Assembly: GCA_001556025.1 (NCBI GenBank)
Contig: LSIB01000075.1
Location: 1 to 29,063 of the forward strand
Source: Rhizobiales bacterium CCH3-A5
GTDB taxonomy: Bacteria; Pseudomonadota; Alphaproteobacteria; Rhizobiales; Beijerinckiaceae
Reading direction: 5' to 3'
DNA: 29,063 bases
This document shows, piece by piece, positions 3,303 through 20,403 of this stretch (position 1 is the stretch's first letter; each line of letters begins with the position of its first letter). A model generated the notes under the pieces. That model did no database searches. It was not told the DNA's origin and saw only the letters and a list, made by a program, of their open reading frames with translations. The translations under genes were made by a program, and so were the position numbers.

Positions 3303-5402
3303 ATGCATTCGCACGCCGCGCTCATGCGCGCTTCCGTCTCACTTCTCGCCCTGACGCTCTGCGCCGGGAGCGCGCTCGCGCAGCAGCGGCCGCGCCTCGC
3401 TCCGCCGCCGGCCGCCATCGTTCCGGGCGCTGCGGCTGCGCCGATCTCGCTCGACGAGATCACCGTGACCGCGAGCCGGCAGGAGGAGCGCGCCATCGAT
3501 GCGCTCGCCGCCGTCTCGGTGGTCAGCCGCACCGATTTGCGCGCGCAGCAGCCGCAGCGCATCGGCACCGTCATCAACCAGATCCCCGGAGTCGCGACGC
3601 AGGAGAACCCCAACGACCCCGCGACCGCGATCAACATCCGCGGCCTGCAGGATTTCGGCCGTGTCGCGGTCACGGTCGACGGCGCGCGCCAGAATTTCCA
3701 GCGCTCGGGCCACAATGCCAACGGCGCGTTCTTCCTCGACCCTGCCTTCGTGCGCTCCATCGACGTGACGCGCGGCCCGGTCGCCAACATCTATGGCTCG
3801 GGTGCGATCGGCGGCGTCGTCTCCTTCGAGACGGTCGATCCCAAGGACATCCTGCGGCCCGGCGAGCGGGCGGCGGCCGAGATCGGCGCGACCGGCGTGT
3901 TCGGGCGGCAGAGCGGGGCCTTCGGCAACGTCGTCGCCGCGGTGCGCCCGACCGAATGGGCGGCGGGTCTCGTCGGGCTGTCCTTCCGCTCGCTCAACCC
4001 CTATCGCGACGGCCAGGGCAACCGCATCCTCGATTCGGACCAGGATCTGCGCTCGGGGCTCGGCAAGATCGTGCTGACGCCGGGCGAGGGCCAGGAGCTC
4101 AAGCTCGGCGGCCAGTACCAGCGCTACGAGTTCACCAACGGGCTCGGCACGGCTGCTGCGCCCCGGCGCGAGAACGAGGTCACGACGCAGAACTATACGG
4201 CGCAGTACTCCTTCTCGCGGCCCGACATTCCGTGGCTCAACCTGAAGGTCAGCGCTTACAACACCCGCACCGAGACCGACCAGACGCAGGTCTCGGGCAC
4301 CGGGGCTGCGCTCGGCGCCAAGCGCTACTTCAACATCGAGACGACCGGCTTCGACATCGCCAACACCAGCAAGTTCCAGTTCGGCGCTCTGGGGCTCGAC
4401 CTGACCTATGGCGCGGACTGGTTCGAGGACCGGGTCAAGACCAGCGACCCGGTCGGCAATGGCGACGAGACGACGCCCTCGGGCAAGCGCCAGGTCTATG
4501 GCGGCTTCGTGCAGGCGCATTTCAAATACGCGATCTTCGACCTGATCGGCGGGCTGCGCTACGATTCCTACGAGCTCAGCGGCGGGCGCACCGCGTCGGA
4601 CGGGCAGCGCGTCTCGCCCAAGGTCACGCTCGGCGTCACGCCGATCCAGGGCCTGCAGGTCTATGCGACCTATGCCGAGGGCTACCGCGCGCCATCGGTC
4701 ACCGAGACGCTGGTCGACGGGCTGCACCCGGCCCCGGCGAGCTTCCTGTTCCGGCCCAACCCGAACCTCAAGCCCGAGGTCGGCAAGACGGTCGAGGCGG
4801 GCGTCAACCTGAAATACGACAATGTCCTGCAGGCCGGCGACCGCTTCCGCGGCAAGCTCTCGGTCTTCCAGAACGACGTCACCAACTTCATAGACGGCGT
4901 CTTCACCGATCCGGGCGCACCCTGCGGCTCGCCAGTGCCGAGAGCCTGCGCCGACGCATTCTTCGTCTACCAGAACGTCGCCAAGGCGAAGCTGACCGGC
5001 ATCGAGGGCGAATTCGCCTATGATGCCGGGCGCTGGTTCGCCAGCCTCTCCGGCTCCAGCGTGCGCGGCGACAACGAGACCAACGGCCAGCCGCTGCAGT
5101 CGATCTATCCCGACAAGCTGACGCTGGGCGCAGGCCTTCGCTTCCTCGACGAGAAGCTCACGGTCGGCGGCCGCGTGACGCTGGTCGACGAGCAGCGCCG
5201 CCTGCCGGCCTCGGCGTTGGCGACCGCGAGCAAGGCCTATGCGCTGGTCGATCTCTATGCCGACTACAAGATCACGCCCGATGCGCGCGCCTTCGTCACG
5301 CTCGAAAATGTCGGCGATGTCCGCTACAAGCGCTTCCGCGACGGCGACAACAGCCCCGGCTTCGTCGGCAAGATCGGCTTCTCGACCCGGTTCGGCACAT
5401 GA
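3303..5402 (+). CDS. hmuR: TonB-dependent haem receptor HmuR
   Basis: This outer-membrane beta-barrel imports haem or haemoglobin-bound haem using TonB energy. The 699-residue protein has a signal peptide ending SALA-QQ (about residue 26), a TonB-box-like DEITVTASRQ near 50, a plug domain (including NIRGLQDFGRVAVTVDGAR and RGPVANIYGSGAIGG), then the barrel, ending FSTRFGT. It carries the haem-receptor signature pair YRAP (461-464) and NPNL (486-489) with a histidine between them (H475), the arrangement known from HemR/HmuR/ShuA receptors. A second Met at residue 8 is an alternative start; neither has a strong ribosome binding site. Transcribed divergently from hmuTUV and followed after 10 bp by the VOC gene, so it probably leads a four-gene haem operon. 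Confidence 0.93.
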   Translation: MHSHAALMRASVSLLALTLCAGSALAQQRPRLAPPPAAIVPGAAAAPISLDEITVTASRQEERAIDALAAVSVVSRTDLRAQQPQRIGTVINQIPGVATQENPNDPATAINIRGLQDFGRVAVTVDGARQNFQRSGHNANGAFFLDPAFVRSIDVTRGPVANIYGSGAIGGVVSFETVDPKDILRPGERAAAEIGATGVFGRQSGAFGNVVAAVRPTEWAAGLVGLSFRSLNPYRDGQGNRILDSDQDLRSGLGKIVLTPGEGQELKLGGQYQRYEFTNGLGTAAAPRRENEVTTQNYTAQYSFSRPDIPWLNLKVSAYNTRTETDQTQVSGTGAALGAKRYFNIETTGFDIANTSKFQFGALGLDLTYGADWFEDRVKTSDPVGNGDETTPSGKRQVYGGFVQAHFKYAIFDLIGGLRYDSYELSGGRTASDGQRVSPKVTLGVTPIQGLQVYATYAEGYRAPSVTETLVDGLHPAPASFLFRPNPNLKPEVGKTVEAGVNLKYDNVLQAGDRFRGKLSVFQNDVTNFIDGVFTDPGAPCGSPVPRACADAFFVYQNVAKAKLTGIEGEFAYDAGRWFASLSGSSVRGDNETNGQPLQSIYPDKLTLGAGLRFLDEKLTVGGRVTLVDEQRRLPASALATASKAYALVDLYADYKITPDARAFVTLENVGDVRYKRFRDGDNSPGFVGKIGFSTRFGT

Positions 5403-18165: not shown

Positions 18166-18188
18166 CCGGCGATGTTTTGCCGGTCATT
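18161..18188 (+). terminator. hairpin at the end of uvrB
   Basis: AATGACCGGC (18161-18170) and GCCGGTCATT (18179-18188) form a perfect 10-bp stem with an 8-base T-rich loop, starting within the last codons of uvrB. No U-run follows, so Rho-independent termination is plausible but not classical. Confidence 0.55.
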
Positions 18189-18209
18189 GCCCTCAATCGC
18201 AATACGGTA

Positions 18210-18377
18210 TCACGCGTAACTGGAGAGCATCCAGGAGACTGCTTTGCCGCCATATGGCGGCATGCGGTTTCCTTTCGCGATGGGAGCGGTCGTGGTCGGC
18301 GTTCCGACCACTTTCCAGACTCCGCTTTCAGGGCAAGTCTCGCCCGTCTTCGCGGTCGTTCCAATAGGCTTCTTCAT
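18210..18377 (-). CDS. 55-residue hypothetical protein downstream of the DndB-like gene
   Basis: A small frame beginning MKKPIGTTAKTGETCPESGV with GGGAG seven bases upstream of the ATG. It continues with VWKVVGTPTTTAPIAKGNRM and ends in an aromatic and hydrophobic tail (SWMLSSYA). The C-P-E-S-G-V-W core followed by a Gly-rich turn suggests a small beta structure like those of YjzC-type proteins, but no firm family can be named. It lies between the convergent uvrB end and the DndB-like gene, on the same strand as the latter, with a strong hairpin between them. It may belong with the DndB-like gene or be an independent small gene. The frame is open further upstream to 18428 without a better start. 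Confidence 0.55.
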   Translation of the reverse strand: MKKPIGTTAKTGETCPESGVWKVVGTPTTTAPIAKGNRMPPYGGKAVSWMLSSYA

Positions 18378-18499
18378 TGTAGGTCTCCCGCGACTGGTTG
18401 CGAAAACCGCATCACAGGGTACAATCAAGGTGTTGGAGCCTCGATCTGTTCTGTGGCGGTGATCGATCGATTGCCGTCGCTGAACAATCAGACCGATCG

Positions 18500-18532
18500 T
18501 AAGGCGGGACCGTTTGGCGCGGTCCCGCCTTA
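18500..18532. terminator. 12-bp perfect hairpin after the DndB-like gene
   Basis: TAAGGCGGGACC (18500-18511) pairs perfectly with GGTCCCGCCTTA (18521-18532) around a 9-base loop. It lies 13 bp past the stop of the DndB-like gene. On the plus strand it is followed by TATCTGATC, on the minus strand by CGATCGG, so it could terminate in both directions without a long U-run. Confidence 0.7.
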
Positions 18533-18544
18533 TATCTGATCACG

Positions 18545-20002
18545 CTATTTCGCGTGGCGGTTAGGCAGATTGAGCTTCCAGCGGATCATGTCCGCGAGGA
18601 TAGGGTAGATGTCGTTGTGCTTCGCACCGAAGCGCATGAGCGCGCCTTGGAATGAGCCTAGATCGCGGTTGGCTTCGGTGACTTGGCCTTGATCAGGCAA
18701 ATACTCGCCGAGCTTGTCGATTTTCGCCGCGATCCGATCTTCCTCGCTCATTTCGTAGAACCGCCACATCGGGTTAGTGTGGCTGAAATCCACCTGGCTC
18801 AGCCGATTTAGCGCCGAGTCCAGGACGGTGTCTCCATTGTCCGGACGGCGGTTCGAGAAGGCGAGGTCAAAGACCACCTTCGCGATGGCCTTGAGAACTA
18901 CTGGCTGCGCCGCGACCGTGTTCAGCTTCGCTCCAGGCTCGTTGAAGCTGTCCAGCTTGAGGATCGCCGTCCACATCTGCGAGACGGTTTCGACTCGCGG
19001 CTCGATGATCGCGGGCGTGGCGCCCACGATATTGCTCTTGTTCAGGAAGGCGATTGCGTTGATGGCGACGATATCCTTACGAGGAAGGCACCCCGTATCG
19101 TCGCTCCAGTCATTCACGTCGTTCTCGCAATCTTGCAAGCCGAGTTCATCGATCAGCACTGAATCAATGAATTTGGTGACGGGGTTTGAGCCGTCGAACT
19201 TCAAAGAGAGCGATCGCGTGACCTTTTTTCCGAGGTTGTTGAGATCGTGGAAGAGTTGCCGTTCCTGCTCGATGGAAAGGCCCAGGTGCAGCTCGACCTT
19301 GACGCTGGCGAACGAGCGAGAGCATTCCAGGGCCTCCATCCAGACCGCCATCTCCTCGGGCGATACTTTACCGCGGCCCGTGAAGAGGTTGTTCTTGGCG
19401 GGGTACGAGCCTGTCTTGGTAACGTACTCGAGGAATTCCTTGGTGGTCTGCCCGCCGACAAGGCGGTGCTGTCCGTCGATCATCCACCAACGAAAATGGC
19501 GGGGAAGATAGACCTGAAATCCCCGGGTCTCGCCTTTGGAAGAGGCTATTCGCTCTGCGCGCACAGAAGGCTTCTCAGGATCAATGTCGCGGATATTCGC
19601 GACGAAAGGCTGAAGCGAAAAATAGGGCTGCGAGCCGAGCTGACGCAGGATTTCTTGAAAGATGTCGGGGATGGGCTTCCCCATGAGTGCGCGTCGCGCC
19701 ATCGCCGAGTTCACCAAACCCTTGAGCATGTAAACTCCCAGACCACGTGCATGCGCGTGGTCCAGCGGCCTTTGCGCGATCTCGCCTTTCTCAGGGTTGT
19801 TTGCGACCGAAGACCATTCGACCAGCTTCATCAGTGGAACATCGACCACCCAAGTCATGCGCCCAAGATTGTAACCGACAAAAACGGTGAAGGGCTCTTC
19901 GTCGCTCGTGGCGAAAGTCATCATGCTGTCCAAGCTGGCGTTTTCCAGCTTGCTTTCGTCCACGGCCATCGCCTTCGGCATTCCATTGGTGTTACCAAAC
20001 AT
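18545..20002 (-). CDS. solitary DndB-like DGQHR-domain protein
   Basis: A 485-residue protein with the family motif WMIDGQHRLVGG (DGQHR at about 176-180) and the later FHDLNNLGKKVTRSLSLKFD block that DGQHR/DndB proteins share. An N-terminal AQRPLDHAHARGLGVYML resembles the DndB N-terminal signature. DndB belongs to DNA phosphorothioate (Dnd) clusters and has been described as a transcriptional regulator of dnd genes. None of dndA, C, D or E, and no restriction partners, are in this window, so this is an orphan. Base composition is visibly lower in GC than its neighbours, with many A/T-ending codons, which suggests horizontal transfer. The ATG at 20002 has GGGAG six bases upstream; the frame extends to 20068 through its own promoter. 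A phage-defence or regulatory role is inference. Confidence 0.82.
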   Translation of the reverse strand: MFGNTNGMPKAMAVDESKLENASLDSMMTFATSDEEPFTVFVGYNLGRMTWVVDVPLMKLVEWSSVANNPEKGEIAQRPLDHAHARGLGVYMLKGLVNSAMARRALMGKPIPDIFQEILRQLGSQPYFSLQPFVANIRDIDPEKPSVRAERIASSKGETRGFQVYLPRHFRWWMIDGQHRLVGGQTTKEFLEYVTKTGSYPAKNNLFTGRGKVSPEEMAVWMEALECSRSFASVKVELHLGLSIEQERQLFHDLNNLGKKVTRSLSLKFDGSNPVTKFIDSVLIDELGLQDCENDVNDWSDDTGCLPRKDIVAINAIAFLNKSNIVGATPAIIEPRVETVSQMWTAILKLDSFNEPGAKLNTVAAQPVVLKAIAKVVFDLAFSNRRPDNGDTVLDSALNRLSQVDFSHTNPMWRFYEMSEEDRIAAKIDKLGEYLPDQGQVTEANRDLGSFQGALMRFGAKHNDIYPILADMIRWKLNLPNRHAK

Positions 20003-20024
20003 CTCAATCTCCCATTCTGTGATG

Positions 20025-20095
20025 CCCTGGATATGAATTATTGAAACCCTGGTGTCAAGATAAAACATCCCAGGTGAATAAATATTTTACCCAGG
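20025..20095 (-). promoter_or_regulatory. promoter of the DndB-like gene with four phased CCCWGG sites
   Basis: CCCTGG at 20025-20030 and 20047-20052, then CCCAGG at 20069-20074 and 20090-20095, stand 22, 22 and 21 bp apart, about two DNA turns. Each contains CCWGG, the Dcm recognition sequence. On the minus strand a perfect TTGACA (20053-20058) abuts the second site, with a weak -10 about 17 bases on (CATATC, 20030-20035) touching the first. The sites therefore bracket and fill the promoter, as operators for repression would. A fifth CCTGG (20120-20124) is off-phase. The surrounding DNA is AT-rich. Confidence 0.55.
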
Positions 20096-20229
20096 GATAA
20101 TTTTGACGTAGAAACCGCTCCTGGACGAAGAGTGGTAAGGGGATGAGGTGACGGCCCCTCGACCAGCGAAGCGCCGCTCCACCCGCAGCACCGGCGACGT
20201 CTCGCCTCATACGGACACCGTCCGACCCC

Positions 20230-20260
20230 TCACCCTGCCCTCTCCCTCCGGGAGAGGGTT
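20230..20260. repeat. REP-like palindrome, copy A
   Basis: CCCTCTCCC (20238-20246) pairs with GGGAGAGGG (20250-20258) over a 3-base loop, preceded by CTCACCCTG. The same core recurs at 20736, 20850 and 29022, so this is one copy of a dispersed repeat family. Confidence 0.75.
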
Positions 20261-20300
20261 CCGCGTCGGGCTCCCGCGCCAGCCGCGAAGGGCGCGCTCC

Positions 20301-20323
20301 CCTTCTCCCCCGAGGGGAGAAGG
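20301..20323. repeat. second palindrome (CCTTCTCCCC type)
   Basis: CCTTCTCCCC (20301-20310) and GGGGAGAAGG (20314-20323) form a perfect 10-bp stem with a CGA loop, 40 bp from copy A. With copy A it occupies the region before the small secreted protein gene. The rest of 20100-20400 shows no gene. Confidence 0.75.
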
Positions 20324-20403
20324 ACCCCAAACCCGCCGGAACAATCACCCCCTCCCCCTGTTTCCCGGAAAAGGGCCGTCCGGCCCGCACAGGGAGAGAA
20401 ACC

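Follow-up and report, generated by a model that had tools for sequence, protein, structure and literature searches.

Four CCWGG sites at two-turn spacing were found directly upstream of an orphan DndB-like gene of Rhizobiales bacterium CCH3-A5, in a stretch of 29,063 nucleotides (GenBank assembly GCA_001556025.1, contig LSIB01000075.1, positions 1 to 29,063) that is referred to below as the window. The array is real, conserved and in phase with the helix, and it belongs to an orphan DndB clade. It is considered probable that the array acts as a conserved cis-regulatory operator, bound most likely by the DndB-like protein itself and serving to repress that protein's own gene.

Autorepression by DndB is already known: Salmonella enterica DndB is reported to repress its own dndBCDE promoter at two TACG-N10-CGTA palindromes (PMC4507180). 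What is new is the phased CCWGG array of the orphan clade, which was not described in the titles or abstract openings of the open-licence papers listed for DndB, DGQHR and CCWGG operators. If the proposed regulation is true, DndB autorepression would also operate in a free-standing clade, would use a DNA signal that is new for it, and at one locus would be linked to a CBASS (cyclic-oligonucleotide-based antiphage signalling system).

Phased CCWGG sites in the window

Four CCCWGG sites spaced 22, 22 and 21 bp had been claimed in the original prediction, and all four were recovered from the window sequence, on the plus strand at 20025, 20047, 20069 and 20090. Their CCWGG cores (no strand assigned) occupy 20026..20030, 20048..20052, 20070..20074 and 20091..20095, at positions -28, -50, -72 and -93, the first being the closest to the ATG (20002) of the DndB-like gene. 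The array thus covers 24 to 93 bp upstream of that codon. At 20120 a fifth CCWGG follows its neighbour at a distance of 29 bp, out of phase.

CCWGG was not enriched window-wide (71 seen against 67.8 expected), and no other phased CCWGG chain of at least three was present across the whole window. Spacings of 20-23, 31-33 and 41-44 bp were counted as phased, ranges that were picked after the data had been seen. With these ranges no chain of four phased sites arose when the whole window was dinucleotide-shuffled 300 times or when the 250 bp upstream of the gene were shuffled 3000 times. The predicted secondary structure of the array strand was no better than that of shuffles (z -0.58).

Conservation at related loci

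Related loci were gathered by protein similarity alone, blind to the array, from genome contigs, relatives, searches at the level of order, class and phylum, plasmids, phages and viral contigs; the phylum-level search found no homologue in 398 genomes. Twelve distinct non-phage upstream regions were retained, namely the window and those of loci L001, L002, L003, L004, L007, L008, L009, L010, L016, L017 and L026, with identities to the window protein of about 42% to 85% where a value was given. Among them are Alphaproteobacteria, a probable prophage and plasmids from Paracoccus, Polymorphobacter, Peribacillus and Paenibacillus, two of these plasmids being from Bacillota. L011 (upstream sequence identical to that of L010), L005 (upstream sequence lacking), L006, L018, L024 and L025 (fragments or weak matches), L042 and L044 (the same genes as L016 and L017) and the partial plasmid matches H6-H14 were dropped. 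L011:3974-5399, a second copy of the gene from a Paenibacillus plasmid, is annotated in several pieces.

The search of homologous loci proposed as a check on the original prediction found phased CCWGG sites in all 12 regions, ten carrying three to five sites and two a pair only. The observed chain was matched by none of 3000 shuffles in ten regions, by 2 at L008 and by 4 at L016. Among 96 palindromes, ranked in 11 of the 12 regions (L026 joined afterwards), CCWGG came first, with 45 occurrences against 5.13 expected (standard deviation 2.21, z 18); the largest count in 500 shuffles was 13, and the runner-up motif reached z 3.3. The W centre was kept (49 CCWGG against 3 CCSGG in the 12 regions), the flanks of the sites were A/T-rich, and the last site stood at differing distances from the ATG. 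When the last 135 bp of six upstream regions were aligned, 13 of the 15 pairs scored within 3 standard deviations of shuffled sequence, the pairs of L003 with the window and with L002 aligning better; the CCWGG sites have thus been retained while much of the surrounding DNA has turned over.

The 12 regions yielded 37 adjacent spacings, 34 of them at most 46 bp and three longer. Of these 34, 22 measured 21-23 bp, five 31-32 bp and five 42-44 bp, i.e. two, three or four helical turns, while two (29 and 38 bp) were off phase. At a period of 10.5 bp R was 0.838, with a nominal p of about 4e-11 that is to be taken as a guide only, since kinship among the loci was ignored and periods from 10.0 to 11.0 yielded nearly equal R.

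CCWGG with W kept is the specificity of Dcm and EcoRII, and the methylation of promoters by methyltransferases is a known switch for some restriction-modification genes. The array might therefore read cytosine methylation, a Dcm-type methyltransferase of a partner or of the host switching the promoter and the binder being the methyltransferase itself or a methylation-sensitive factor. Methyltransferase genes do lie near L002 and L007, and a weak match lies near L008, but the first two proteins are 22% identical to each other; their candidate homology to E. coli Dcm, at 25-27% identity, was weak and was not accepted. No methyltransferase, and hence no linked cognate one for CCWGG, was encoded among eight window neighbours scanned with Pfam, and inspection by eye of the list of open reading frames (ORFs) of G034 revealed none. 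The strict two-, three- and four-turn spacing would also suit contact between bound proteins more than methylation alone, and we judge methylation sensing improbable. With a core that is also a Dcm/EcoRII site, a connection of DNA methylation with a DndB-like regulator can be tested.

The DndB-like protein and its clade

The gene (18545..20002, minus strand) encodes 485 aa with a DGQHR motif at residues 176-180. Its description as an orphan DndB-like gene held: the protein matched PF14072 (DndB; E 3.2e-23, 82.8 bits against a curated cut-off of 29.1), and neither dndC, dndD and dndE nor any other dnd gene was present among the eight scanned neighbours, unlike the arrangement reported for Salmonella dndBCDE. 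The match to the NCBIfam DGQHR model fell below its cut-off (33.5 against 58.85) and that to the PADLOC DndB model was weak (E 0.00012). Homologues numbered at least 1719 at E<=0.001. In the predicted structure a ParB-CTPase-like domain of the ParB/Noc/KorB type spans approximately residues 50-260; Foldseek alone gave no significant match for the protein. The protein differs from the KorB, ParB and Noc CTPases in that Pfam found DndB only and no helix-turn-helix domain, in its DGQHR motif and in being encoded by a solitary gene.

No TACG-N10-CGTA operator with up to 2 mismatches was present inside 20003-20120; over the whole window this motif was seen 61 times against 70.55 expected. The system resembles Salmonella DndB in protein family and in having palindromes in the gene's own promoter, at which binding and repression would take place here too, and differs in its CCWGG cores, its phased array of 2-5 sites and its distant clade.

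In a maximum-likelihood tree of 25 proteins, several of them on long branches, a branch recovered in 86% of bootstrap trees separated the 12 array-bearing rows from the remainder, namely eight phage homologues, four outgroups and the viral contig L023. As controls, 240 genomes were searched with PF14072; of 14 matches two were already in the set, and the other 12 were used, with start codons assigned mechanically (L050 and L051 were below the family cut-off, and L048 is a fragment). No phased CCWGG chain was found at the 12 control loci, one of which has two sites 45 bp apart. The 330 bp that precede the match on L023 (31% identity) contain no CCWGG. A search of 33 loci and the window for phased chains of at least three returned eleven sequences, ten of which lie before a dndB-like gene; the other, at L005, lies inside the predicted coding region of another gene and was taken as chance.

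Given the ParB-like domain, the array might instead serve as a centromere-like site or in plasmid maintenance, as a site on whose repeats a ParB-fold protein would sit and which would double as its operator. Five of the 12 regions are on plasmids or a plasmid-like contig, and L002 and L009 each have a ParA-type gene at most a few kb away. The array is kept, however, on apparent chromosomes (the window, L001 and L003) and beside phage genes (L026), the ORF lists of these four showed no ParA gene by eye, and no other gene was seen to be common to the plasmids. A partition site is accordingly regarded as very doubtful.

Promoters and proposed regulation

A promoter is presumed at 20030..20058 on the minus strand, with TTGACA at 20058-20053, a 17-nt spacer and a weak -10, CATATC, at 20035-20030. 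The perfect TTGACA that the original prediction placed beside one site is present, and the 20048 site abuts it within the presumed -35/-10 spacer. The claim that another site lies near the -10 is uncertain, because the matching hexamer is weak and a stricter promoter scan does not list this promoter. At the related loci a sigma-70 matrix was applied from about -150 to -30, and the top-scoring predicted promoters fell within or just downstream of the arrays: TTTACA-17-TATACA (L002), TTGCAA-17-TATATA (L003), TTTACT-17-TATTAT (L009) and TTTACA-16-TATAAT (L010). L003 and L004 each have a site inside the presumed -35/-10 spacer. Repression is likelier than activation because of the position of the predicted promoters within or just downstream of the arrays and the sites in the spacers of L003 and L004. 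An inverted repeat, noticed by eye in both L002 and L003, lies close to the presumed ribosome-binding site, about 35 bp before the ATG (at 4001), and is possibly a 5' leader hairpin.

The DndB-like protein, with its ParB-CTPase-like domain, would bind the palindromic CCWGG cores as dimers. Spaced by two to four turns and sharing one helix face, the dimers would touch one another, and occupancy of at least two sites would shut the overlapping promoter of the protein's own gene. Repression may extend to co-transcribed genes, such as the CBASS genes on the Polymorphobacter plasmid. ATP dependence of DndB has been reported (PMC12704722, PMC10853773), as has binding of ATP and GTP by a DndB-like protein (PMC12704722); on the model of Salmonella DndB, repression is probably tuned by nucleotide binding. 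With a conserved operator the likely DNA target can be read from sequence, and a cooperative complex is predicted from the helical spacing.

The original prediction had put self-binding forward as a fair hypothesis, and autoregulation is the most economical explanation, since no gene other than the dndB-like one was seen by eye to recur beside the array in the stretches fetched. A host regulator or another trans-acting factor, repressor or activator, might instead bind CCWGG and control the gene, and an activator would suit the sites of L002, L009 and L010, which stop upstream of the -35. Against such a factor, the same motif stands before the gene in Pseudomonadota and Bacillota despite differing neighbours, and we know of no shared host factor of CCWGG specificity; we consider this proposal unlikely. 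Methylation sensing, a partition site and another regulator are each less likely than self-binding.

Precedent for self-repression is provided by Salmonella DndB. That short palindromes in series suffice is shown by RptR, a self-repressor of an E. coli defence island for which several short palindromes in direct repeat, at least two of them needed, are reported (PMC12255303). RptR and the present system share several short palindromes over the gene's own promoter and a link to defence (here in three regions). RptR differs in being a small helical protein that uses TAGCTA in 9-bp direct repeats, and no similarity to DndB is claimed.

Several observations weigh against autorepression by the DndB-like protein. 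The weakness of the window -10 leaves the site geometry there uncertain, and sites ending upstream of the -35, as in the three loci named above, fit activation too. At L010 and L016 just two sites are exact, the branch of the array rows is moderately supported (82/90, not starred), and the C-terminal half of the protein (residues 262-485) gave no clear fold match. In addition, eight phage homologues (43-46% identity) had no CCWGG in the 330-350 bp upstream, although the array-bearing L009, L010 and L017 are no nearer the window protein (42-44%) than these are.

Phage genomes

Of 21 phage records with the gene, four were taken with flanks and that of Pseudomonas phage VCM (L027, L028) was taken complete. 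VCM contains CCWGG once against 161.6 expected, and 20-kb pieces of two further gene-bearing phages contain none (22.3 expected in SYP, 27.7 in NoPa). Avoidance of CCWGG caused by the DndB-like protein was rejected as an explanation, because related phages outside the 21 gene-bearing records are depleted as well (20-kb pieces; phiPsa374 0 against 26.1, KIL1 2 against 27.9, Bitten 5 against 37.1). Host restriction is the simpler cause. GGWCC was likewise absent from VCM (72.2 expected), whereas SYP and NoPa do not lack it.

Genomic context

A defence-library scan covered some neighbours of L002, L004, L007 and L008. At L007:8001-11228, on Polymorphobacter plasmid p29334-4, the DndB-like gene is followed, after a 10 bp gap, by genes for Cap15 (PF18153, E 1.2e-35; PADLOC effector, 8.9e-83) and a CD-NTase (PADLOC cyclase, 1.5e-147), probably a CBASS operon. 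Downstream lie a cytosine methyltransferase gene and one for a very-short-patch repair endonuclease. Directly upstream in L002 are genes for Vsr and a C5-methyltransferase and a weak match to an Eco29kI-type endonuclease; the match downstream of L008 is to a type II methyltransferase (PADLOC E 0.0012). No defence partner was found among the eight scanned neighbours in the window. Association with defence in three of the 12 regions is no more than suggestive. A transcription factor associated with CBASS has been reported in CapW, a WYL protein (PMC9122588); it differs from the present case, in which a DndB-like gene precedes those for Cap15 and the CD-NTase at a single locus.

On contig L026 the array and gene accompany phage CI repressor and portal genes, and this copy is probably prophage cargo. 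In G599 about 4 kb separate the DndB-like gene from a Piwi-domain gene (L036:13205-15604, E 1.3e-7), and an integrase-like ORF was seen by eye close to the Piwi-domain gene. Gene and array might together be a mobile one-gene module, in which a nucleotide-controlled ParB-fold protein would form a cooperative line on the CCWGG sites of its own promoter, gate linked defence genes and sense infection, being pulled off the array by incoming DNA that is rich in CCWGG or differently methylated or by a drop in nucleotide. This extension of the autorepression reading is offered as a speculation of low probability.

From about 18.1 to 20.2 kb the guanine-plus-cytosine (GC) content of the window is 0.51-0.61, against 0.65-0.73 on both sides. 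Just past the last site, at about 20105-20140, the sequence again begins to match same-genus genomes, in many cases at a repeat. On account of the GC dip and the point at which these matches resume, gene and array look like a single, probably acquired segment beside uvrB (18166..20115, no strand assigned, borders approximate). The repeat element itself, at 20115-20340, is present in many copies across same-genus genomes, and these swamped the empty-site comparison. A 125-aa ORF between uvrB and the DndB-like gene had no Pfam match, nor had two of the eight neighbour proteins; at a threshold of E 1e-8 the other six matched UvrB, SbmA/ABC, HODM, GST, MFS and the enolase superfamily.
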